In this document: positions 3,936-15,064 of the stretch, in pieces | Layout of the letters: each line of letters opens with the position of its first letter | Numbering within the stretch: position 1 is the stretch's first letter | IMG/VR virus record: IMGVR_UViG_3300025141_000970 | Location: 1-20,722 of that record | Direction: 5' to 3' (one strand) | Length of the DNA: 20,722 nucleotides | DNA from: a virus | Position numbers and translations under genes: made by a program | Notes under the pieces: model-generated | Databases searched by the model: none | What the model was told of the DNA's origin: nothing | The model's input: only the letters and a program-made list of their open reading frames with translations

Positions 3936-6935
3936 CTATCCCATCGCTATCTTTTCAACTTCGGAAGGCCCAAAGGCTCCCATGGTCTTAAGTAACGGGG
4001 TTGATTTAATCTTAGTGCCTTCTTCCTTCTTTGCGTAGGAAGACTGCAAAATATTAATATTCTCGGGTTTGTGCGATACATCGAAGGGCCTCTTGAATAA
4101 TATGCTCGCCTGATTCCGGTAGGCATGATGCACCCGCGTATCGCTATCGTCGCTGAACAGAGAAAACCTCTCCAACAGACCGGCGACAATACTTCCATAA
4201 ATGTTTGGGTAAGTCTTTTCGAGCATATCTACATGGGTAGAGGTAAGCGTCCCGGCCTCAAAATTCCCAAGCGTTTCGCCGATAGGATCCTCAAGAACGG
4301 CAAAGCGGATCTCCTGCTGTGCAAGCTCCCTGTCTGTGGGTTGGCGTTCGGGAACGCCCATTATTTTATCGTCGATTGTGCGACTGTCTTTATTGAACCC
4401 CTCCATCGCGTGGTGCATCCCTGCCAGCCCTTTGGCTTTGAGTGACGCGGAGAGATTAGGCATGTCGTGTTCAATTGGCCCGGTGATTTTATCGATAGCC
4501 CCCATAAGCGCCTCGGGATCTTGGAGCTTCATTGCTCGTTCCTTGGCCTTCTTATAGTCCTCCATCTTGGTGGTTTTCTTTTTCGACTCTTCCTCTCCAA
4601 ACTGTGCCGCTAGGGGGGCTAGGAAGAGCTTCGTTCTGTTCGGACGCACGGGGATACTCCCACCAGGACCGCCTTTGGTCATACGGTCTACAATCTTATC
4701 CAGCGATGTGTTCATTACCTTCCGGGCATTGGAAATATTGTGCTCCATCATTGCCAGTTTTCGTGCGGTAGCTGCGCCATCGGCCAAGCCACCCATGATA
4801 AAACCGGCAGCGGCACCAACGGGGCCAAATGTGAGACCACCAAAAGCACCATAGCCAAAACGTCGATAGAGTTGTGCGGCATAACGAGGGTGAAAGCCAT
4901 TGCCTCCCGCAGCCTCATTTATAAACCGGGTCTCCCTCATCGATTGAATCATCTCATCAATATTTGTTTTGGTACTTCTAAGCGTGGAAGACACTCGACC
5001 GGCAGACAGCGCGGCGTCCCCTTCAAACCCGTAAAGCTTATTCGCGGAAGTTGAAAAGTCGTCAGCCGCAGCAAAAAACTCGTGGAACCGCTTTTCTGTT
5101 TCAACCCCCCAAGATGCTTGCATAGTATTGTCGCCGCGCCCCTCAAGATTCTTAAGGAATTTGCCGACCTTTTGGGTGTTGATCCATTCGTCTTGCCATT
5201 TGTTTTTACCTTTACTTATCCGGTCCCCAAACTCCGTCTTAAAGTCATCTATGGCACTAATGAAGCGGGAGAACTTGGGGTTGATTGTGGCCTGAGTTTC
5301 CGCCGCTTGGCCCCATAGGATTTTATTTTCAAGCAATTTCCGAATCTTGTTTTCGGACTTTGCTAGCGCCCCCTGTGTATTCCACTGGAGCACGTTCCGG
5401 CCTTTCTTGCCGAATGCCCAATGGCCTAGATATTTCTTATAGTCATCCAATAGGAGGAAGGTATCTTCCCCGGCTTCTATGATTGCTTTCCACTGATTCT
5501 CAGAAGTGGCTGCACGGACTTTCGGCGTGACTAACTCGTCCCATTGTCGTAGCATTTTCTCAAGATGTTCCGGCTTTGCTTTGCCATTAAGAACATCCAT
5601 TAGTGTTTTGGCATGGCCTCGGAGTTCCCGGCCACCGGCTTTCCAAGCGTAGCCGCCTGTCTCCCTCATGGCTTGGCCTAGTGTGTGGAGGTCGCCATAA
5701 ACCGTTTCTATTGTTTCCCGAGCGGCCAGAATTCCCCTGTGCGCCATAGCTGCGCGAGTCTCAAGGTCACTTTTCACTTGCGTGTTTGAGTAGTTAGCTA
5801 GGCGAAATTCGTCAACATTCTCTGCGGGTTCATTGAATAACTGCTTTCGCATGTGCTCGCGCTTGTTTCCCCCACGAGAATTCTGCGCCACCGTTCCCAG
5901 ATCATCCAGAACGGTATTCAGGTTCGTGACGATATCATCCTGAGATTTACGGAACGTGGCCTCTTTTGCTATCGCGCCAGCCCTTGCCTCTTTAGCTCCT
6001 CTATATAATCCAACCTGTTTTTTAAGGGTTTCACTCTCAACCCCTAAGAGCCCTCCGGTTAAATCGAGTAACTTATCTTGGGCTTTCACCGACATTTTAC
6101 TATTCGTGGCTTTTTCGTATAGGGACGCAAACCCATCGGACATCTTCTTAGCCCCGCCCGGTACGCCTACCATCGTTGCATGAACACCTGCGTTAGCCAT
6201 GCCGCCAAATAATGCACTGTAACCGATATTCGACCAAAGCATTTCAGCCGCCTCGTCGGGGTCGCCAAGTGATGCTTCCGTGAGTGTTGTACCTGCGCCG
6301 AATGCGGCACCCTCTAAAGCCCCACCCGCTGCCTTTGGTAATGTCGAGCTTAGGATTTTAAGAGCTAGGCCCTTGTCGGCACCACGAGACAGGACGGCGC
6401 TATTCGCGAGAGTTTGTTCTAATGCGCGACCGCCCTTGAACGCTAACGATGAAGGGGCCAATCTTGCGACCAGTTTCCCGCCACTTACTGCCGATGATGT
6501 TCCCCCGGAGAAGAACGCTGGCAACATGGCCCCACCGATCTCGGCCGCAGTACTGGTTCCGCTGTACTCTTCGCGCCAATGCTTCAGCCTGTCTTTCTCG
6601 ATAAACTCATTCAGGAACGCATCGGAGACGCCCAGAGTGGCCCCCCGCGCCAAGCCGGAAAGAGCTGCACCCGCGTAGCCTTCTGCTGTGTCGGTACCGT
6701 ACTTCTCTTTGCGAGCTAGCCGATCCCAGTCTGAAGTGCTGCCATACTCCCCGCCCTTCTCCATAGCTTCCAAGGCTTCAGCGCCGGGGATCATGTGGCG
6801 GCTACCGTCTGGGGCAATAACAGGGACGCGTTCTATCTGATTAAACGCGTATTCCCGCGACAGAACAAGCCGCTTAACGTGCTCTTGGGGAACTTCTTCG
6901 TAAGCATTCTTTTTAAAGTTGTAAAGTCTAGGCAT
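3936..6935 (-). CDS. Large internal virion (DNA-ejection) protein
   Basis: A 999-aa protein from ATG 6935. An upstream in-frame ATG at 7073 adds 46 Arg-rich residues that are only the M15 gene read in another frame, so I reject it. The N-terminus (PRLYNFKKNAYEEVPQEHV) leads to a short APDG...IPGAEALEAMEKGG motif often seen at the start of phage injected proteins. Gly/Ala-rich hydrophobic segments lie near residues 85-110, 128-150, 200-222 and 236-260. A long charged helical body follows, then a Gly/Ala membrane-active segment near 688-722 (YGAFGGLTFGPVGAAAGF) and a hydrophilic tail. This matches large ejection proteins that cross or form a channel in the envelope. No lytic transglycosylase motif is evident; the peptidoglycan-cutting activity may come from the adjacent M15B domain. 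The start overlaps the M15B stop by 8 bases, with a weak SD. Confidence 0.72.
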   Translation of the reverse strand: MPRLYNFKKNAYEEVPQEHVKRLVLSREYAFNQIERVPVIAPDGSRHMIPGAEALEAMEKGGEYGSTSDWDRLARKEKYGTDTAEGYAGAALSGLARGATLGVSDAFLNEFIEKDRLKHWREEYSGTSTAAEIGGAMLPAFFSGGTSSAVSGGKLVARLAPSSLAFKGGRALEQTLANSAVLSRGADKGLALKILSSTLPKAAGGALEGAAFGAGTTLTEASLGDPDEAAEMLWSNIGYSALFGGMANAGVHATMVGVPGGAKKMSDGFASLYEKATNSKMSVKAQDKLLDLTGGLLGVESETLKKQVGLYRGAKEARAGAIAKEATFRKSQDDIVTNLNTVLDDLGTVAQNSRGGNKREHMRKQLFNEPAENVDEFRLANYSNTQVKSDLETRAAMAHRGILAARETIETVYGDLHTLGQAMRETGGYAWKAGGRELRGHAKTLMDVLNGKAKPEHLEKMLRQWDELVTPKVRAATSENQWKAIIEAGEDTFLLLDDYKKYLGHWAFGKKGRNVLQWNTQGALAKSENKIRKLLENKILWGQAAETQATINPKFSRFISAIDDFKTEFGDRISKGKNKWQDEWINTQKVGKFLKNLEGRGDNTMQASWGVETEKRFHEFFAAADDFSTSANKLYGFEGDAALSAGRVSSTLRSTKTNIDEMIQSMRETRFINEAAGGNGFHPRYAAQLYRRFGYGAFGGLTFGPVGAAAGFIMGGLADGAATARKLAMMEHNISNARKVMNTSLDKIVDRMTKGGPGGSIPVRPNRTKLFLAPLAAQFGEEESKKKTTKMEDYKKAKERAMKLQDPEALMGAIDKITGPIEHDMPNLSASLKAKGLAGMHHAMEGFNKDSRTIDDKIMGVPERQPTDRELAQQEIRFAVLEDPIGETLGNFEAGTLTSTHVDMLEKTYPNIYGSIVAGLLERFSLFSDDSDTRVHHAYRNQASILFKRPFDVSHKPENINILQSSYAKKEEGTKIKSTPLLKTMGAFGPSEVEKIAMG

Positions 6936-7323
6936 GATATTCCCAATGCCACCATTCTTTACCCGCTGTCTTGTGGGCATAGCCTGGCCATTTGAATCCG
7001 TACTTGGCCGCATTCTTCTTAAGCCATTTAAACATGGGGCTATCCTTACCCTTGCCAGCGAGGTTGATGTCATAGCCTGTGCCGTGCATGTGTGTGCTTC
7101 TCCTCAGCTTTTCCTCCGACCAAGTAGGATGCAGTCTCTTCTGCTCCTCGTAGTCCCTATTCCCTGAAGTAATATACATCGGCTGCCCTGTCTCATTCTG
7201 GTACGCGGCGGCCATTTCCTGCATAGACTTCGCCGCTCTAGGGTTTATCGCATCTTCAACAGGGTCAGAGAACATTCTTCCGCTAGTGTCTCTACCAGCA
7301 ATAACGCCCCCTGCCCCCGTTAC
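6928..7323 (-). CDS. M15B (VanY-type) peptidase domain, probably made by -1 frameshift
   Basis: Residues counted from ATG 7275 show a complete M15B D,D-/L,D-peptidase core of 115 aa: NPRAAKSM, SGNRDYEEQKRLH (37-49), STHMHGTGYD with Zn ligands H62 and D69, and EWWHWEY with catalytic E107 and ligand H110. It should cut stem peptides in peptidoglycan. The ATG has GGAAGA directly touching it, with no SD spacing. The same frame is open and coding-like for 16 codons further upstream (VTGAGGVIAGRDTSGR), back to a slippery A AAA AAG at the end of the 559-aa gene, of which this is exactly the -1 frame. I therefore read it as the C-terminal domain of a frameshift fusion of about 690 aa, a virion-associated lysin for entry. 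A standalone lysin started at 7275 or an assembly error are the alternatives. Confidence 0.75.
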   Translation of the reverse strand, partial: VTGAGGVIAGRDTSGRMFSDPVEDAINPRAAKSMQEMAAAYQNETGQPMYITSGNRDYEEQKRLHPTWSEEKLRRSTHMHGTGYDINLAGKGKDSPMFKWLKKNAAKYGFKWPGYAHKTAGKEWWHWEYHA

Positions 7324-7343
7324 TTTTTTCCTTCTTCTACTCC
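7282..7343 (-). promoter_or_regulatory. dnaX-like -1 frameshift signal
   Basis: The zero frame reads GAA GAA GGA AAA AAG TAA, placing the heptamer A AAA AAG (7329-7323) in the required X XXY YYZ phase directly before the stop. An SD-like GGAG (7343-7340) lies 10 nt upstream, the spacing known to stimulate shifting at E. coli dnaX. Downstream, TAACG (7322-7318) can pair with CGTTA (7306-7302) around an 11-nt G-rich loop, and GCTGGT (7299-7294) with ACTAGC (7287-7282). The first stem is closer to the heptamer than usual. Confidence 0.6.
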
Positions 7344-8999
7344 AAACTTAGCCCTGTTCGCTCGCCAATATGATGCCGAACCTTTCTCATCGGCTGTGGA
7401 TAGCCCTTCGTAACCAATGCCCTTGGTCTTAATCGCCGATTCAAGGAGGAGCTGCTGCCTTGCTGGGCCGTCCATAGTGTCCCACCGTGCGCTTTCGATC
7501 TCGTTAATCATTGACTCAAGGCCATCGAGCATGGCGTTGGCGGCTGCTTGGCTTTTCCATACGCCGGGGATGAACTTCAGCATGATCTCATAATCCTTGT
7601 CAGAGATTCGCCCTTTGTCGGTATACATGAGGAGTTGCCTCGCTATTAGGCCGCGCTTCTGCTCCATCTTTCCGCCGTGAGAGTCAAAAAATGCCTGCGT
7701 GATCTGCCACGATCCAGGGATATCCTCCGGTCCTCTCTGCTTAATCATTTCCCGGTAAGAGCCAATCTGATTTTTAATCGACTTTAACTGCCCCATGTCT
7801 GCACGGGTCTTATCCCCAACAGCGTCTTTCCCTGATTTCCCCGCCTTCTGCGCGAGGCTGGCTTTCCACTTATTCTCCCCGTCCTCCAGCTTCAGTAACG
7901 ATATCTTATCTGAGAACACTTTTTCATCGATCCCAAACTCTTTGCCCATTGATGTGACTTTTGCGTTAAACGTGCGGAATGCCGCCGCTCTTGCTAGGCT
8001 ATCTGCCTGTCTTTCGTCACCGAGCATACGCATGGCCATCCCGTATACGTTCCTGCTCTCATCAACCATTCCTTTAAGCTTCTGGTACTCCATCTTCTGG
8101 GCTTCGATATCTTTATCGATTGCAGAGTTTACGATTGATAGCGCCGTGTTTGGTAGCTTCCCCCCGGATAGCCCTTGAGCATAAGCCCCCATCGCAATCC
8201 CTATTACGGCGGCAACCTTTGACATAACGCTAGGATACGCCCTCATGGGGTTAATTTCCCAACTTGCGAGCTTCGAGGTAGCCGTGCTTAATGCGGTTTC
8301 CGCTTCTTTAACCTTCGAGCGAGAGTACTCAACCTGGGATTCTTGCCTTATTCGGCGCTCTTCTGCCGCATAGTCTTCTTCTGTCTGTCCGTATGCTTTC
8401 TTTTGGTCTGTCCGAAAATCGGACAGTTCTTTTTCGAGTCTCCTGAGCTTTCCTTTGATACTTTCCCCGCCTGGCTCCATCGGGGGAGCACCTGTACCTG
8501 CACCTGCACCGGCACCTACAGCGGCTTCCGGTCGTGGGGGAGGCGTTATGTCAAGCTGCTCCTCCTGCGTTCTCATTTGTTCTGGCGTTGGTTGTGTTGA
8601 CACTGTTGATGGGTCAACTCCGGCCGGGTCTTCCGTGCCCCAGTAGCCTACGTCTGGATGACTGCTTACCAGAGCGGGATCAATGGACTCCACATTCATG
8701 GGTTCGGTGGAATGCCCCCCTGTTCTGAACTTGCCCTTGTATACCTCGTCCATAATCTGGGCGCGTTCGGTATCATTCTTGGCCTTCTTTAGCTTCATCT
8801 CCGCGAGCTTCCTGTCATGCTCCGGTAGGTCACGAAAGGCATTAAAGAAATCGCCTACATTGGACGCAACAGCTTCCCCGAAATATTTCAATTGGGCCAT
8901 TGGGCCATACTTCTGGATGTCTTCGACCGAGCGTGTTGGTCGGTCGGCGGCTGTTTGGGTAGGGGCGAAACGGCTTGCCCCTCCGTGTGGTGAAACCAT
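7320..8999 (-). CDS. Coiled-coil internal virion protein (zero-frame product)
   Basis: A 559-aa phage protein, probably inside the virion. An N-terminal hydrophilic part (residues 1-155) is followed by a Gly-Ala/Thr dipeptide tract (about 160-170) encoded by a hexanucleotide repeat. Next come a long charged coiled coil (about 174-245), a short hydrophobic Gly/Ala segment near 258-280 (KVAAVIGIAMGAYAQGLSGG) and a helical region (NSAIDKDIEAQKMEYQKL, then RMLGDERQADSLARAAA). The last two parts resemble a family of podoviral ejection proteins; this is recognition by eye. The ATG overlaps the previous stop as TAATG, so it is translationally coupled. The gene ends in A AAA AAG TAA, and a -1 shift would fuse it to the M15B peptidase. 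The zero-frame protein would then be the abundant form and the fusion a minor one. Confidence 0.72.
   Translation of the reverse strand: MVSPHGGASRFAPTQTAADRPTRSVEDIQKYGPMAQLKYFGEAVASNVGDFFNAFRDLPEHDRKLAEMKLKKAKNDTERAQIMDEVYKGKFRTGGHSTEPMNVESIDPALVSSHPDVGYWGTEDPAGVDPSTVSTQPTPEQMRTQEEQLDITPPPRPEAAVGAGAGAGTGAPPMEPGGESIKGKLRRLEKELSDFRTDQKKAYGQTEEDYAAEERRIRQESQVEYSRSKVKEAETALSTATSKLASWEINPMRAYPSVMSKVAAVIGIAMGAYAQGLSGGKLPNTALSIVNSAIDKDIEAQKMEYQKLKGMVDESRNVYGMAMRMLGDERQADSLARAAAFRTFNAKVTSMGKEFGIDEKVFSDKISLLKLEDGENKWKASLAQKAGKSGKDAVGDKTRADMGQLKSIKNQIGSYREMIKQRGPEDIPGSWQITQAFFDSHGGKMEQKRGLIARQLLMYTDKGRISDKDYEIMLKFIPGVWKSQAAANAMLDGLESMINEIESARWDTMDGPARQQLLLESAIKTKGIGYEGLSTADEKGSASYWRANRAKFGVEEGKK
8489..8518 (+). 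repeat. Hexanucleotide tandem repeat, five units
   Basis: Five successive hexamers near CACCTG (CACCTG, TACCTG, CACCTG, CACCGG, CACCTA) lie inside the 559-aa gene. On the coding (minus) strand they give a Gly-Ala/Thr dipeptide tract. This is a flexible-linker microsatellite and a likely site of length variation among relatives. Confidence 0.75.
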
Positions 9000-10135
9000 T
9001 ATTTCTTTCCTTTCTCCCCCTTGGACAGCATATCCATGAAGGACTTAGCGTCTTCCTGGGTGAATCCGCTCTCTTGTGGTTGCGGCGAGGCTCCGGGCCT
9101 TGCCCCCTTAGTGTACACTCCACCGGGAGAAGGTGGTAAATCCCGAAAAGGCAAACGCCCTGGAATTTTGCGCCATGAAGCACCGGGGGTTCCTGGGATA
9201 TCCGTCTTGGCGACGGGGACATAGGGCGTTCCTGGTAGTGGTATGCTCTGAGGGTAGCGCCTAGCATACGCCGCCCCCGGCGATGCTTGCTCCAACGCCT
9301 CAAGGCGTTTTGCTAGGAATTTCTTGTCTTCGTTTTCTTTCTTTAGCAGCGCAAGGGTAGTTAAAGCCGCCTTGTTCGGGTCGGATACAAGAAGCCCTGT
9401 TTTTGGATCGCGGCTAATGAAGCTCCTGCCAACTTCTGTCTCGGCTACGGCATCGTCAAGCAGCGGTCCCATGTTGCCTTTGCCACCACCGAAGCCTTCT
9501 TTGTAATCGAAGGCCCCTGTCCTAAGCATGTTCATGAACTCCTCGGTAGCTTCCGGGGATATCGGTCGAGTATTCTCCTTGGCTCGCTTATCGGAGAACA
9601 TTCCAACAACTGAGGCTATGGTCCCTACTGCACCAGCGGTTCTTTGTTGCTCTTCCTGTACCGCCCCACGTTTTTTCTGCGCCATCATTTGGTCAATCTG
9701 TTGACGAAACTGATTATCATCCATCGCCAGCATACCCGCAGCCCCCGCTTCCTCTCGGGTATAGCCCTGCTTCTCTGCTTCGGCCGCTATCGCCGCAGGA
9801 GCCATTGACTGGACGTAAGACTCTCCACCGGCCTCGCTCCCCATTCGCATACCCGCACCACCGCCACTGCCGCCACTGCCGCGAGCTAATGCTACCTGTC
9901 CTGCCGCCTGTTCGCGCTGGATCTCCTTGGCTGCTCTGGTTGCCGGTCCTCCGACCCTAGCCATGCGCCCCGCCCCCCCGATATCTTCGACTAAGTTTTG
10001 TCGATAGGGGTTACGGTTCAAGTATTCGCCGGGGGGACGTAGGTTTACATCGATAGCCCTATCCTGAGCCGCTCGTTCCTCGGTCCCTTTTATTGCCGTT
10101 TGCTCCGCAGGTTCCCACGGCATACTCCAATCCAT
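8999..10135 (-). CDS. Virion protein with S74-like chaperone/autoprotease box
   Basis: A 378-aa protein. Residues 1-90 are helical and charged, a Gly/Ser linker follows (about 86-100), then an Ala-rich helical region to 170 and a short hydrophobic stretch (TAGAVGTIASVVGMF) leading into SDKRAKENTRPI at 181-192. That is the signature of Peptidase_S74 intramolecular chaperones, whose Ser and Lys five residues later (here S181, K186) act in self-cleavage. The following residues fit the family: AFDYKEG, a stretch GLLVSDPNKAALTTLALLKKENE and a terminal helix to about 283. A Pro/Gly-rich tail of about 95 residues follows. S74 domains usually end tail fibres; here it lies inside an internal-protein gene. 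AGGAG precedes the ATG. Whether it cleaves is unknown. Confidence 0.7.
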   Translation of the reverse strand: MDWSMPWEPAEQTAIKGTEERAAQDRAIDVNLRPPGEYLNRNPYRQNLVEDIGGAGRMARVGGPATRAAKEIQREQAAGQVALARGSGGSGGGAGMRMGSEAGGESYVQSMAPAAIAAEAEKQGYTREEAGAAGMLAMDDNQFRQQIDQMMAQKKRGAVQEEQQRTAGAVGTIASVVGMFSDKRAKENTRPISPEATEEFMNMLRTGAFDYKEGFGGGKGNMGPLLDDAVAETEVGRSFISRDPKTGLLVSDPNKAALTTLALLKKENEDKKFLAKRLEALEQASPGAAYARRYPQSIPLPGTPYVPVAKTDIPGTPGASWRKIPGRLPFRDLPPSPGGVYTKGARPGASPQPQESGFTQEDAKSFMDMLSKGEKGKK

Positions 10136-10864: not shown

Positions 10865-13800
10865 CTAACTAATTATGTCCGATTTTGGGAATTTAAAACT
10901 ATTCTCAGGCTTCTTGACCCCGACTAACATAGACACGCCTTGAACCCGGAAGTCGCCGCCCGTCGATTCGGTCGTTTCAGTAATCCCGAACTTAAGCGCC
11001 CTTACTTTCTGCTTTGGTAACTTCGCTACTAATTGAAATTTTGATGTACCAGGAGCCGCGTCCATCTCAACCAGTGTAGGGGATTCGTTGTAGTCGGTAT
11101 AAAGAAGTAATTGCGGATTTGACGCCGCGTTGTAGTCGCCAAGGAACAAAAGCCTATAGACACGCCCTAGCTGTTGCAGCTCGCCCACATTAATCCACCC
11201 TGTAATGAATCCATAAGCATACCCCTTATCGGCTGATACAAGCTTGTCGTAGGTCTGTGATGAATGTTGCTTACAGAGAATCCCATTGACGCCGAGCCTA
11301 TAGTGCTCACCCTCCACCATTAAGGAGGCGGCGTTTAGCTTTAGATCTGCATGTAAGTCCCAGGCCGAAAACTGGTCGAAAAGATAGTTATAAACAAGAA
11401 TCCCTCCAGTATTATAGGCCGTGAAGCGAACCTCGTGGGAGTCCTCAAAGACATGCCCGTCAATCAGGTAGTTGGCTGTGGAGACATAACCGTCAGCAAC
11501 CTTAGCCCCTTTAAACGAAACTTTCATGCTCCGGTCACAAAGCATTAGCCCTTGGCGAGTCTGAAAGAATACCCCAACAGGAGTCTCTACGCGGCAACAT
11601 CCATCTAGGGCACCTTGCCCCGGAGCGAATCTCCGCAGCGGCGAAAAACCAGGGCCAGCCCCGGTAGAGCTAGGACCATCCCCCGACATATAGTAGCCAT
11701 TCCGAGCACCGAGAATAAGCATGTGTTCCAAATTGGGACAGATAGCGCGAATCTTTTCGGCGCGGTTATCCACCGAGCGAATAAATGAGTCGCTAAACCC
11801 TGTCTCCTGGCCCTCTACAAACCTTTTTGAAAACCAGACAGTGTTTTCGGTGGTAGCCAGGAATACGCGGTCCTTCCAAACAGTAATGTCATATTGAGAC
11901 GGGGGGGCTATGTTGCCTGCAACACCGCCCGTAGTATACAGAACAGGGTTATCGATAAGGTCAGCGTCGGGGAGCCTGTCCTCTATTGATTGGATTCGGC
12001 TACTCCTATCCATTAATGCTTCAGCGCAGCGATGGAAGATGCTGCCGCCCGTGGCCGTGTCTGTTGTCCTGTAGAGAACAATCTTGACCTCCGACCTTGC
12101 TCCAGCACTCACAAAACTAAAGCCACCGGGGTTCACTAGCGTAGTCGCATCCCTTTTATAAGTCATAAGAAGAGTGTAGACGTTTACAGTGACCACGTTA
12201 TTATTTAGGTCGCCCGTAGTTATGGGGAGCGACGGGTTGGACTGCTGAACCTTGCCGTTATGGTCCACCCATTCGTAAATGGCTACATAGCTGTATGTGT
12301 CATCGAGCGTATCCGCGACAGTGGCTAAGGACATAGAGTGAATTTCGGGGTAGTAGAAAAAATTATCTTCTTTAAAATAATCCCCCGAATAATCCCAAAG
12401 GATACCACCAGCCACCTTTAAAGCGCCGTTCGCCTGAACGCTCGGCAAATACCGTGTCGGGGCAAAGTCGAGAATCCCCACGGCGGCATCCATCGCCGTT
12501 AAATCCAACCCGTCAGAATTCAGATTAACACCACTGTAACGGGATGTTCCGAACCGGTATTTAGTTGCAACGTATTTTTCCGGGCTTGTATCGTTTGCGT
12601 TATCCGAAAAAGCCTCCGAGACTGTTAGGCTCGTATCGCTCGCTATGGCGGATACGCTTCTCGATTCCCCCGTAACCGTAATTATATCACCAACGGCTAA
12701 TTGAGAAGTGAAGCGGGTGTTTACCCCCGTAACCGTAGTGCTCGCGATTGGGTCTATAGAGCCGCTTAATACATCGGTCGAGCTTTCAGCGTGAACACGC
12801 GAAACACCGTGCATTAAGTGGCACCGGTTAAACACCATGTACTGCATGAACCTAAAGTCAATTTCTTGTGTCCAAGGCCCGGCGCTTATCGCTGTTTTTG
12901 CTATAACCTCCCCTTGGTGATTCATAATCAAGCCCACAGAGGTATTGAATACTGAGTGAGCAAGCATAGCATCGCCAGAGACATTGTTTGGTCGGGTCGC
13001 ATGACCGACACCCAAATAAAGATCTCTATTATGGGCAAAGCAATCAGACGTAATGGTCATCCCGTAAAGGTCGAGGTCTACATCAGCCCCACCGCCAGAC
13101 AGGGTATAGTCGTAAGCGTTAACAAGGAATTCCGGGCTCCTTGCCAGTAGGTTTGTTTTGTTGGCGACAACGGTAAAGAAGAAACGAACCTTTCCGGAGA
13201 CATTTTTCCCCGCAGTCCCATTTACGAGTATGAATCCGGGCAACGACGTACTCTGATAAGCCATTGTGACCGTGTTTAGGGTTGCGTTTTGCTCGGACCC
13301 TTGGAGGACTAGCGCCGCGTTGTAGACCCGGTATTTTACCCCGTCCGGTTCATCCCCCGAACCACCTGGACCCCCTATGGCGTTTGCTGATGCAGTATAG
13401 GCAACAGCAATGTAGTCCCCCGTAGTTCTGTCACTAGGAGTCACTACCTTGAGCATTATGCCGCCAACTAGTTCCATGTTCCCTTTGTTCGCCGCACCAA
13501 CATACTCGGAGGTTGCCGAAGACGATGGTGCCCCTGCTGTGTTTGCGAGAGGAAAATGTACCCTGGACTCGAAAGCTGCCGTTGTTGGGGATGGGGAACT
13601 TGCCTCGGAGAGCGTTCCCCCACTGTTCTCATAATAGGACAGGCGAAGGTACCTATCGGAAGGGGATGGGGACGTAATGCTGTAATTAACCCGAGCCAGG
13701 ACACATATTCCATTAGAGATGGAGGCATTGTTTACCGCTTCAACAGCCCAAACAGGGTTTGTTATATTGACTAGGAACAATTCTCCAGCCCCGCTGGTGA

Positions 13801-15064
13801 GTAGCGCGGGGATTAGTGCGTTGGATATCGCGCCGCTGCCTGCCCCTGTGTCTACCTTTGCGTATTTAACCCGGCCGTTCCCCACGTAGGCGAAAAGAAA
13901 GACGTACTGTCCCGAGACAGCCACCTGGACGCGAGGCACATTATAAAAGGCGTTTGCCGTCGTAAGGGTGCTAAAGAGGGTTCGCCCAACGATCTCGGTT
14001 CTTGTCTCTTTATCGATTACCTTGGCATAGCTTCGCCAGACGATCCCCGAGTCACCTACGTTTCCTATCGTTCCCCCCGTGGGTGTGCTTGCGGGATTTA
14101 ATGGGACTGGTACGGTTAAGTCGATAGTCATTGAGGTAGCGGATGGGAGTGCAGTTACAAGATAAGTTCCATCGGGCCAGGATCCGCTAGTGAAGTTGAT
14201 TACTACCTGTTGACCAATGGCGAATTGATGCCCAGTAACAAGGCCATTGAGTGTCAGTTCGGTCCCATTTATAACCAAGAAGCGGAACACATCATCTTTC
14301 GTGTGTCCGGTGGTCCCGACGAACTCTATGCCTACCCCATGATTCAGAGTCGTATCAGGCCCGGCGGCTATCCCGGTACCTCCGCTAACATAGCTCCCGT
14401 CGTTATTTTCGTCGTACTCCCAATTCCATGTGTCGGGAGTCCCTTCGCTGGCAATTGTTACCTTGTATACTCTGTCGTTGTCGGTCCCTGTGAACCATGT
14501 AAGAGGGTTTACGGTGGGTGCTTGCCCGCAGGATCCCCCTCCGCTGATGCAACTCATTGTTGCGCTAGGAACGGCATTCACTACTGCGCTAACGCTGCTA
14601 AACGTAGCAGACATTGTTACGTTTTCGGTGGGGTCAATCTCCGACCAGGCATGGACCTCAAACCCGTTAGCCTGTCCGATCTGCGCCGATGTTTGTACAA
14701 TATTTGTACCCGCTTCAACCAGCTCGGTTTCGAGAGTGGACCCGACAACGGTGCCTTTATTTACCCAATGGTCCGAGGTCGAAGTCTTGCTGTATGCAGA
14801 ACGCCCATCGAAGGCGAGAATCTCGTCGTTATAGGCGGCTAAAGCCTTCCCCGTATCTATCGTCCTCGCAGAATCGCCAGTGTCTATCGCAGGGATATCG
14901 TTTGAAATGCTGTGGAAGCCCTTTCTTTTGCGGAGCTCACCGGCTTTATAGAAATGGCCATTTGTAATGAGCGTCATCTCACCGGCCGGGAGTACGCGGT
15001 CGTGAATCTTGTCGTTTATCCCTTTCGCTAGTGGAATTCCGATTAGTTTTTTCTCTAAAGCCAT
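10865..15064 (-). CDS. Very large nozzle-like tail protein
   Basis: A 1399-aa, beta-rich protein with no signal peptide. The N-terminus (EKKLIGIPLAKGINDKI...TLITNGHFYKAGELRKRKGF) is typical of podoviral tail-nozzle or tail-tubular-B-like proteins: a short strand, a GIN motif, then a statement of rows beginning with a basic patch. The C-terminal third has the expected propeller-like motif series: WKDRVFLATTENTVWFSK (about residue 1060), a HMLILGARNGYYMSGDG strand, GCCRVETPVGVFFQTRQG, and DQFSAWDLHADL. The middle holds a long insertion of Ig/beta-type repeats rich in T, S, G and V (including two near copies of TVTG strands around 760-800). At 1399 aa it is far longer than P22 gp10 or T7 gp12, so it probably carries extra surface domains. 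The ATG overlaps the previous stop (TAATG) and has only a weak SD, so it is likely translationally coupled. The nozzle role is inferred from N-terminus and gene order. Confidence 0.7.
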   Translation of the reverse strand: MALEKKLIGIPLAKGINDKIHDRVLPAGEMTLITNGHFYKAGELRKRKGFHSISNDIPAIDTGDSARTIDTGKALAAYNDEILAFDGRSAYSKTSTSDHWVNKGTVVGSTLETELVEAGTNIVQTSAQIGQANGFEVHAWSEIDPTENVTMSATFSSVSAVVNAVPSATMSCISGGGSCGQAPTVNPLTWFTGTDNDRVYKVTIASEGTPDTWNWEYDENNDGSYVSGGTGIAAGPDTTLNHGVGIEFVGTTGHTKDDVFRFLVINGTELTLNGLVTGHQFAIGQQVVINFTSGSWPDGTYLVTALPSATSMTIDLTVPVPLNPASTPTGGTIGNVGDSGIVWRSYAKVIDKETRTEIVGRTLFSTLTTANAFYNVPRVQVAVSGQYVFLFAYVGNGRVKYAKVDTGAGSGAISNALIPALLTSGAGELFLVNITNPVWAVEAVNNASISNGICVLARVNYSITSPSPSDRYLRLSYYENSGGTLSEASSPSPTTAAFESRVHFPLANTAGAPSSSATSEYVGAANKGNMELVGGIMLKVVTPSDRTTGDYIAVAYTASANAIGGPGGSGDEPDGVKYRVYNAALVLQGSEQNATLNTVTMAYQSTSLPGFILVNGTAGKNVSGKVRFFFTVVANKTNLLARSPEFLVNAYDYTLSGGGADVDLDLYGMTITSDCFAHNRDLYLGVGHATRPNNVSGDAMLAHSVFNTSVGLIMNHQGEVIAKTAISAGPWTQEIDFRFMQYMVFNRCHLMHGVSRVHAESSTDVLSGSIDPIASTTVTGVNTRFTSQLAVGDIITVTGESRSVSAIASDTSLTVSEAFSDNANDTSPEKYVATKYRFGTSRYSGVNLNSDGLDLTAMDAAVGILDFAPTRYLPSVQANGALKVAGGILWDYSGDYFKEDNFFYYPEIHSMSLATVADTLDDTYSYVAIYEWVDHNGKVQQSNPSLPITTGDLNNNVVTVNVYTLLMTYKRDATTLVNPGGFSFVSAGARSEVKIVLYRTTDTATGGSIFHRCAEALMDRSSRIQSIEDRLPDADLIDNPVLYTTGGVAGNIAPPSQYDITVWKDRVFLATTENTVWFSKRFVEGQETGFSDSFIRSVDNRAEKIRAICPNLEHMLILGARNGYYMSGDGPSSTGAGPGFSPLRRFAPGQGALDGCCRVETPVGVFFQTRQGLMLCDRSMKVSFKGAKVADGYVSTANYLIDGHVFEDSHEVRFTAYNTGGILVYNYLFDQFSAWDLHADLKLNAASLMVEGEHYRLGVNGILCKQHSSQTYDKLVSADKGYAYGFITGWINVGELQQLGRVYRLLFLGDYNAASNPQLLLYTDYNESPTLVEMDAAPGTSKFQLVAKLPKQKVRALKFGITETTESTGGDFRVQGVSMLVGVKKPENSFKFPKSDIIS

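Follow-up and report, generated by a model that had tools for sequence, protein, structure and literature searches.

The stretch of DNA analysed here, referred to as the window (20,722 nucleotides, IMG/VR record IMGVR_UViG_3300025141_000970), carries on the minus strand of its 20.7 kb a structural module of short-tailed-phage type, with the gene order portal, SU10-like capsid protein, p237, p131, p1399, p234, p378, p559, lysin, p999, and p544 (LamG). The positions of the features discussed below are given in Table 1. By gene order, p378, p559, and p999 appear to stand where T7 has gp14, gp15, and gp16, respectively, and the position of p559 between the tail gene and the largest protein points to a gp15-like ejection protein; p559 is thus probably an internal or ejection-type virion protein. 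Neither p559 nor p999 matched a PHROG or Pfam family, no tape-measure match was obtained for p999, and a single-sequence scan with p999 gave no match. The structure model of p559 was unusable (pLDDT 57, pTM 0.37), and the fold search returned one weak, uncharacterised match. A weak match to Peptidase_S74 (endosialidase chaperone), below cut-off at 5.5e-4, was found in the middle of p378 and is unexpected given the ejection-protein position of this gene. The plus strand encodes a separate, endolysin-like M15_3 peptidase at 750-1250 (PF08291 and phrog_894), and the phage therefore has two M15-type cell-wall peptidases of different families, VanY and M15_3.

Table 1. Positions of the features at the p559-lysin junction and its neighbours in the window, and of the second-group loci in their own contigs
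Feature	Contig	Position	Strand	Basis or remark
p999, large protein, next in module	window	3936..6935	-	ORF; ATG overlaps the last codons of the lysin
Whole -1 extension, 131 aa + stop	window	6928..7323	-	open frame
VanY/M15 peptidase domain, PF02557	window	6934..7248	-	residues 26-130 of the 131-aa -1 stretch, 4.6e-11
Stem-loop, 66 nt, putative frameshift-stimulating element, directly 3' of heptamer	window	7257..7322	-	folding
ATG of 115-aa lysin ORF, rival start	window	7273..7275	-	weak GGA upstream
Linker, 16 codons, -1 frame, VTGAGGVIAGRDTSGR	window	7276..7323	-	VT[G/R]AGG common to the L075/L076 -1 frame
p559, carrier protein, 559 aa, zero frame	window	7320..8999	-	ORF; homologues in 16 related records; role by gene order
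Slippery heptamer A_AAA_AAG, zero-frame phase, directly 5' of p559 stop	window	7323..7329	-	conserved in L075-L077
SD-like GGAG, 10 nt 5' of heptamer	window	7340..7343	-	same element in L075, L076, and L077 at 10-11 nt
p378, upstream neighbour of p559, T7 gp14 position	window	8999..10135	-	gene order
p1399, tail protein, nozzle position by gene order	window	10865..15064	-	tail PHROG, 8e-6
Carrier ORF of ~550-560 aa ending G_GGA_AAC TGA, SLT in -1 frame	L168	4273-6302
Carrier ORF of ~550-560 aa ending G_GGA_AAC TGA, SLT in -1 frame	L174/L175	5262-7237
517-aa carrier ORF, possible G_GTT_TTT site, lysin in -1 frame	L176	5289-7240

The last codons of p559 are GTA GAA GAA GGA AAA AAG TAA, so that, as the earlier note had pointed out, A_AAA_AAG stands in the zero-frame slippery phase at the very end of the gene. 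The string AAAAAAG is not rare as such in the window (6 observed versus 5 expected). The upstream GGAG that had been likened to the dnaX element is also present; taken alone it is weak, with 21% of random sites pairing equally well with the anti-SD, and its weight derives from its recurrence in all four phages that carry the signal. The stem-loop that follows the heptamer was absent from the earlier note. Its predicted stability is -33.9 kcal/mol (z -6.0, with 0 of 200 shuffles as stable), which ranks it by stability within the top 0.5% of 65-nt stretches on this strand, and its base pairs extend into the spacer after the heptamer.

No stop interrupts the -1 frame between a point 21 nt 5' of the heptamer and the TAG ending at 6928, and this frame does lead into a complete M15B peptidase, as had been claimed. 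The 131-aa stretch scores 43.1 bits against PF02557 VanY (curated cut-off 25) and contains the zinc ligands and catalytic acid of the HxxxxxxD and ExxH motifs (H62, D69, E107, and H110 in the numbering of the 115-aa ORF, read from the sequence). Because the frame stays open to this TAG, the predicted fusion comprises 559 + 131 = 690 aa, the size expected earlier. The lysin occupies the whole interval, since p999 starts inside its last codons. Searches of IMG/VR and INPHARED with the window VanY or p559 as the query found no close relatives, only remote VanY endolysins.

One alternative to a fusion is that two separate proteins are made and that the heptamer is incidental, the lysin being translated from the ATG at 7275 or by reinitiation 45 nt after the p559 stop. 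The earlier note held that the peptidase lacks a usable start signal, a claim that stood only in part: this ATG, the sole early start in the lysin frame, is preceded by a weak GGA and would give a complete VanY domain, but it lies in the 3' arm of the stem-loop and is paired there. Burial in a stem of -33.9 kcal/mol argues against its use.

We propose instead that the end of p559 would act as a signal for programmed -1 ribosomal frameshifting of the dnaX type. Some ribosomes would read on through AAA AAG to the TAA and release the 559-aa protein. The remaining ribosomes would pause at the stem-loop while the upstream GGAG pairs with 16S rRNA, would slip from A_AAA_AAG to AAA_AAA, and would thereby yield a 690-aa fusion with a C-terminal VanY-type peptidoglycan peptidase. 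In dnaX the SD-like element lies 10 nt upstream of the heptamer, and the resemblance of p559 to the E. coli gene covers A_AAA_AAG, an SD-like element at this distance, and a hairpin about 5-6 nt downstream. The same heptamer in E. coli dnaX, followed after a 5-nt spacer by an 11-bp hairpin, gives 50-80% frameshifting (PMC8861025). The outcome differs, in that ribosomes shifted on dnaX soon meet a stop and make a shorter protein, whereas the p559 shift would add a C-terminal enzyme whose domain varies among relatives. Scans of bacterial and archaeal genomes for the capsid protein and the signal pattern gave no match that would point to a host.

Relatives of the phage were reached via the capsid protein, which gave 56 related loci; a p559 homologue was present in 16 of the 24 records searched, and these were fetched. 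Three of them, L075 (3300025131_000529), L076 (3300025069_000002), and L077 (3300038315_000952), come from named metagenomes other than that of the window. Their p559 homologues are 32-34% identical to p559 and end in GGA AAA AAG, followed by TAA, TAA, and TAT TAG, respectively. All three keep GGAAAAAAGTA, the upstream GGAG, and a hairpin 6 nt after the heptamer. The expectation of the earlier note that homologues would retain the heptamer while the surroundings drift is therefore borne out in these contigs, and here the enzyme itself belongs to another family: the -1 frame leads into an SLT lytic transglycosylase (PF01464; 9e-11, 7e-11, and 4e-8), unrelated to VanY, with phiKZ gp144 as the nearest solved relative. 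The carriers of A_AAA_AAG amount to four contigs but only three separate lineages. An indel shortly upstream distinguishes L075 from L076, yet both have the same GGCGGGGAGCGCGTAACCGGAAAAAAGTAAC.

The three hairpins are each of 11 bp with one bulge. Between L075 and L077 two pairs have changed in a compensatory manner, and further pairs switch to or from G-U. Their shuffle z-scores are modest (-0.8 to -2.1); in each contig the signal region ranks in the top 0.1-0.5% of positions for stability at one of the two tested lengths. Codon-position counts in the linker of L075 and L076 were too few to decide anything. In the same two contigs the first ATG of the -1 frame is codon 33, within the stretch that aligns to phiKZ gp144, which again argues against a separately initiated lysin.

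A six-A homopolymer is a possible indel site, and the layout could in principle reflect a mistake in assembly or sequencing, or a frameshift mutation by which one long gene was recently split. This is exceedingly improbable, given that four contigs, divergent from one another and in three cases derived from other named metagenomes, share exactly six As and the same frame relation, and that the surrounding GGAG and hairpin are kept. None of the observations that the earlier note regarded as fatal to a frameshift fusion was made: the assembled sequences of all four contigs have six As rather than seven, and none of the relatives seen has both regions in one frame. Together with the retention of the signal in three other contigs, this supports the earlier reading of the locus.

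The signal also goes together with the lysin. Twelve fetched relatives, some of them near-copies of each other, have no lysin ORF in the slot; in these the p559 homologue lacks the heptamer at its end, and no more than a few dozen bases separate it from the start of the p999 homologue. L095 and L091, a near-copy of L074, likewise have no lysin and no heptamer, and p999 is conserved in lysin-less relatives as in all four heptamer phages. When 350 distinct ORF ends in the related contigs were compared, an in-phase A_AAA_AAG stood in the last codons of only 4, and these 4 are the very ones that have a lysin in the -1 frame. Among 2.9 million IMG/VR contigs, the 24-nt pattern GGAAAAAAGTANNNNGGGCRGGSG, written so as to fit all four phages, matches only L075, L076, and L077. 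VanY was found in 0 of 24 related records and SLT in only three (L075-L077), and the giant proteins of seven lysin-less relatives examined contain no lysin domain. If the lysin were a separate protein, the presence of heptamer, GGAG, and hairpin in four phages and in none of the lysin-less relatives would be left unexplained.

L074 (520-5208) is the nearest relative of the window by p999 (60% identity) and has neither lysin nor heptamer. In the p999 tree the window pairs with this lysin-less phage (support 99/99) inside a five-member clade, the other members of which carry SLT. In L074 and L091 p999 begins 3 nt after p559, which suggests loss of the whole cassette. The simplest history comprises one ancestral cassette, one enzyme exchange, and one loss, although the tree does not force a choice between a single change and two cassette gains.

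A scan of 75 SLT loci for slip sites revealed a second group of phages with the same layout and other slip sites (Table 1). In L168 and L174/L175 a GC hairpin lies 4-6 nt downstream of the slip site, the next gene encodes a giant protein (1439-1519 aa), and the hairpins of the two differ by two compensatory pairs. The L176 lysin is 65% identical to that of L175, and its possible slip site is likewise followed by a hairpin at 4-6 nt. The second-group carrier proteins matched no known phage or family, and no relation to p559 was detected. The -1 frame of L168 contains no ATG, GTG, or TTG anywhere, and the first start after the slip is codon 81 in L174 and codon 60 in L176, both inside the domain; consequently, it is hard to see how these lysins could be produced other than as fusions. 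This speaks against separate proteins in the second group, and for the p559-lysin pair we consider separate translation unlikely. A TTTAAAG in L142 was judged to be a chance occurrence, as it is embedded in a long SLT frame that is overlapped by a frame of only 87 codons. In L155 (6908-9067) and L156 (6917-9532) the SLT is N-terminal in large proteins with a T7 gp16-like layout; these proteins directly follow an overlapping ORF of ~350 aa and represent an in-frame alternative to the frameshift layout.

The fused product could also arise by slippage of RNA polymerase on the A6 run, which would yield a fused message. As a rule, such slippage needs runs longer than six As, and the run here is short in this respect. 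The GGAG and hairpin, at the right distances, are moreover stimulators of ribosomes, and the G_GGA_AAC of the second group has no long homopolymer. Polymerase slippage is known for Thermus dnaX (PMC5009743), and for p559 we rate it as very improbable. Ribosomal slipping, and a ratio set by it, is what we infer from an arrangement that displays the sequence features of a dnaX-type site: an in-phase X_XXY_YYZ heptamer, an open and coding -1 frame, an SD-like element about 10 nt upstream, a downstream hairpin (a hairpin or pseudoknot being expected at about 5-9 nt), and conservation across homologues. Judged from sequence, programmed -1 frameshifting is very likely the best explanation of the p559-lysin layout.

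Hydrolases are known on podovirus ejection proteins, as in T7 gp16, K1E/K1-5 gp35 (a gp15 homologue), and SU10 gp20 (PMC8954989, PMC9509320), and transfer of the hydrolase domain between gp16-like and gp15-like proteins is known as well (PMC8954989). The window resembles these systems in having a hydrolase domain within what is, by gene order, the ejection-protein module. It differs in that every copy of T7 gp16, K1E/K1-5 gp35, or SU10 gp20 would carry the enzyme, whereas here only the shifted copies would. Neither paper reports a frameshift for these hydrolases, the word being absent from both. If p559 is gp15-like, as its position suggests, the fusion would load the particle with a limited dose of hydrolase for ejection at infection, and what fraction of the carrier molecules bears the enzyme would be determined by the frameshift.

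A frameshift fusion might instead serve lysis or assembly from within, with p559 not ejected at all. The lack of a known family match for p559 and its poor structure model are compatible with such a role, which we nevertheless consider doubtful: the phage has its separate M15_3 endolysin gene, the structural genes follow a T7/SU10-type order, and ejection-protein hydrolases have the precedents named above. Packaging and ejection of the fusion as an entry lysin is thus what we infer from gene order, and it is probably correct. The account as a whole, with a dnaX-type signal, p559 and its 690-aa fusion, an ejected dose of lysin, and exchangeable lysins, is one in which we place considerable confidence.

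Frameshift-made minor structural proteins with C-terminal extensions are known from the T3/T7 capsid, the A2 head protein, and Listeria phages (PMC5009743). Those extensions are Ig-like or other non-enzymatic domains on capsid or tail proteins, in contrast to the peptidoglycan hydrolase predicted here. Lambda G-GT is similar in that a -1 frameshift near the end of a structural-module gene gives a minor fusion; GT serves as a chaperone and is not part of the virion (PMC5009743), and in place of a chaperone fusion ahead of the tape measure gene the present extensions are VanY or SLT. The PRFect paper counts lysins among the genes in which frameshifts are known to occur, citing a lactococcal lysin made up of two overlapping genes; to go by the title of that work, the shift occurs within the lysin gene itself and does not attach a domain to another phage protein. 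Frameshift-made extensions of phage structural proteins and virion hydrolases on ejection proteins are thus each known separately. In the open-licence literature, where absence is not proof, we found no paper that joins a frameshift-made extension with an ejection-protein hydrolase, and no description of lysins being exchanged downstream of a slip signal that is itself conserved.

Because related phages attach a transglycosylase with the same signal, the signal may be regarded as a socket for exchangeable lysins. On balance, it seems that short-tailed phages have recurrently and independently evolved the attachment, by frameshifting, of a measured and exchangeable dose of hydrolase to an ejected protein, with one conserved slip-signal socket and a second group that uses other slip sites. 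The class may be wider than annotation shows, since lysins without a start in the -1 frame, such as that of L168, escape ordinary gene calling. If true, the socket would keep the proportion of armed to unarmed carrier protein fixed and would let a phage swap its lysin chemistry, peptidase or transglycosylase, with the carrier unchanged, and it would bear on the question of what controls entry-lysin dose in phages.
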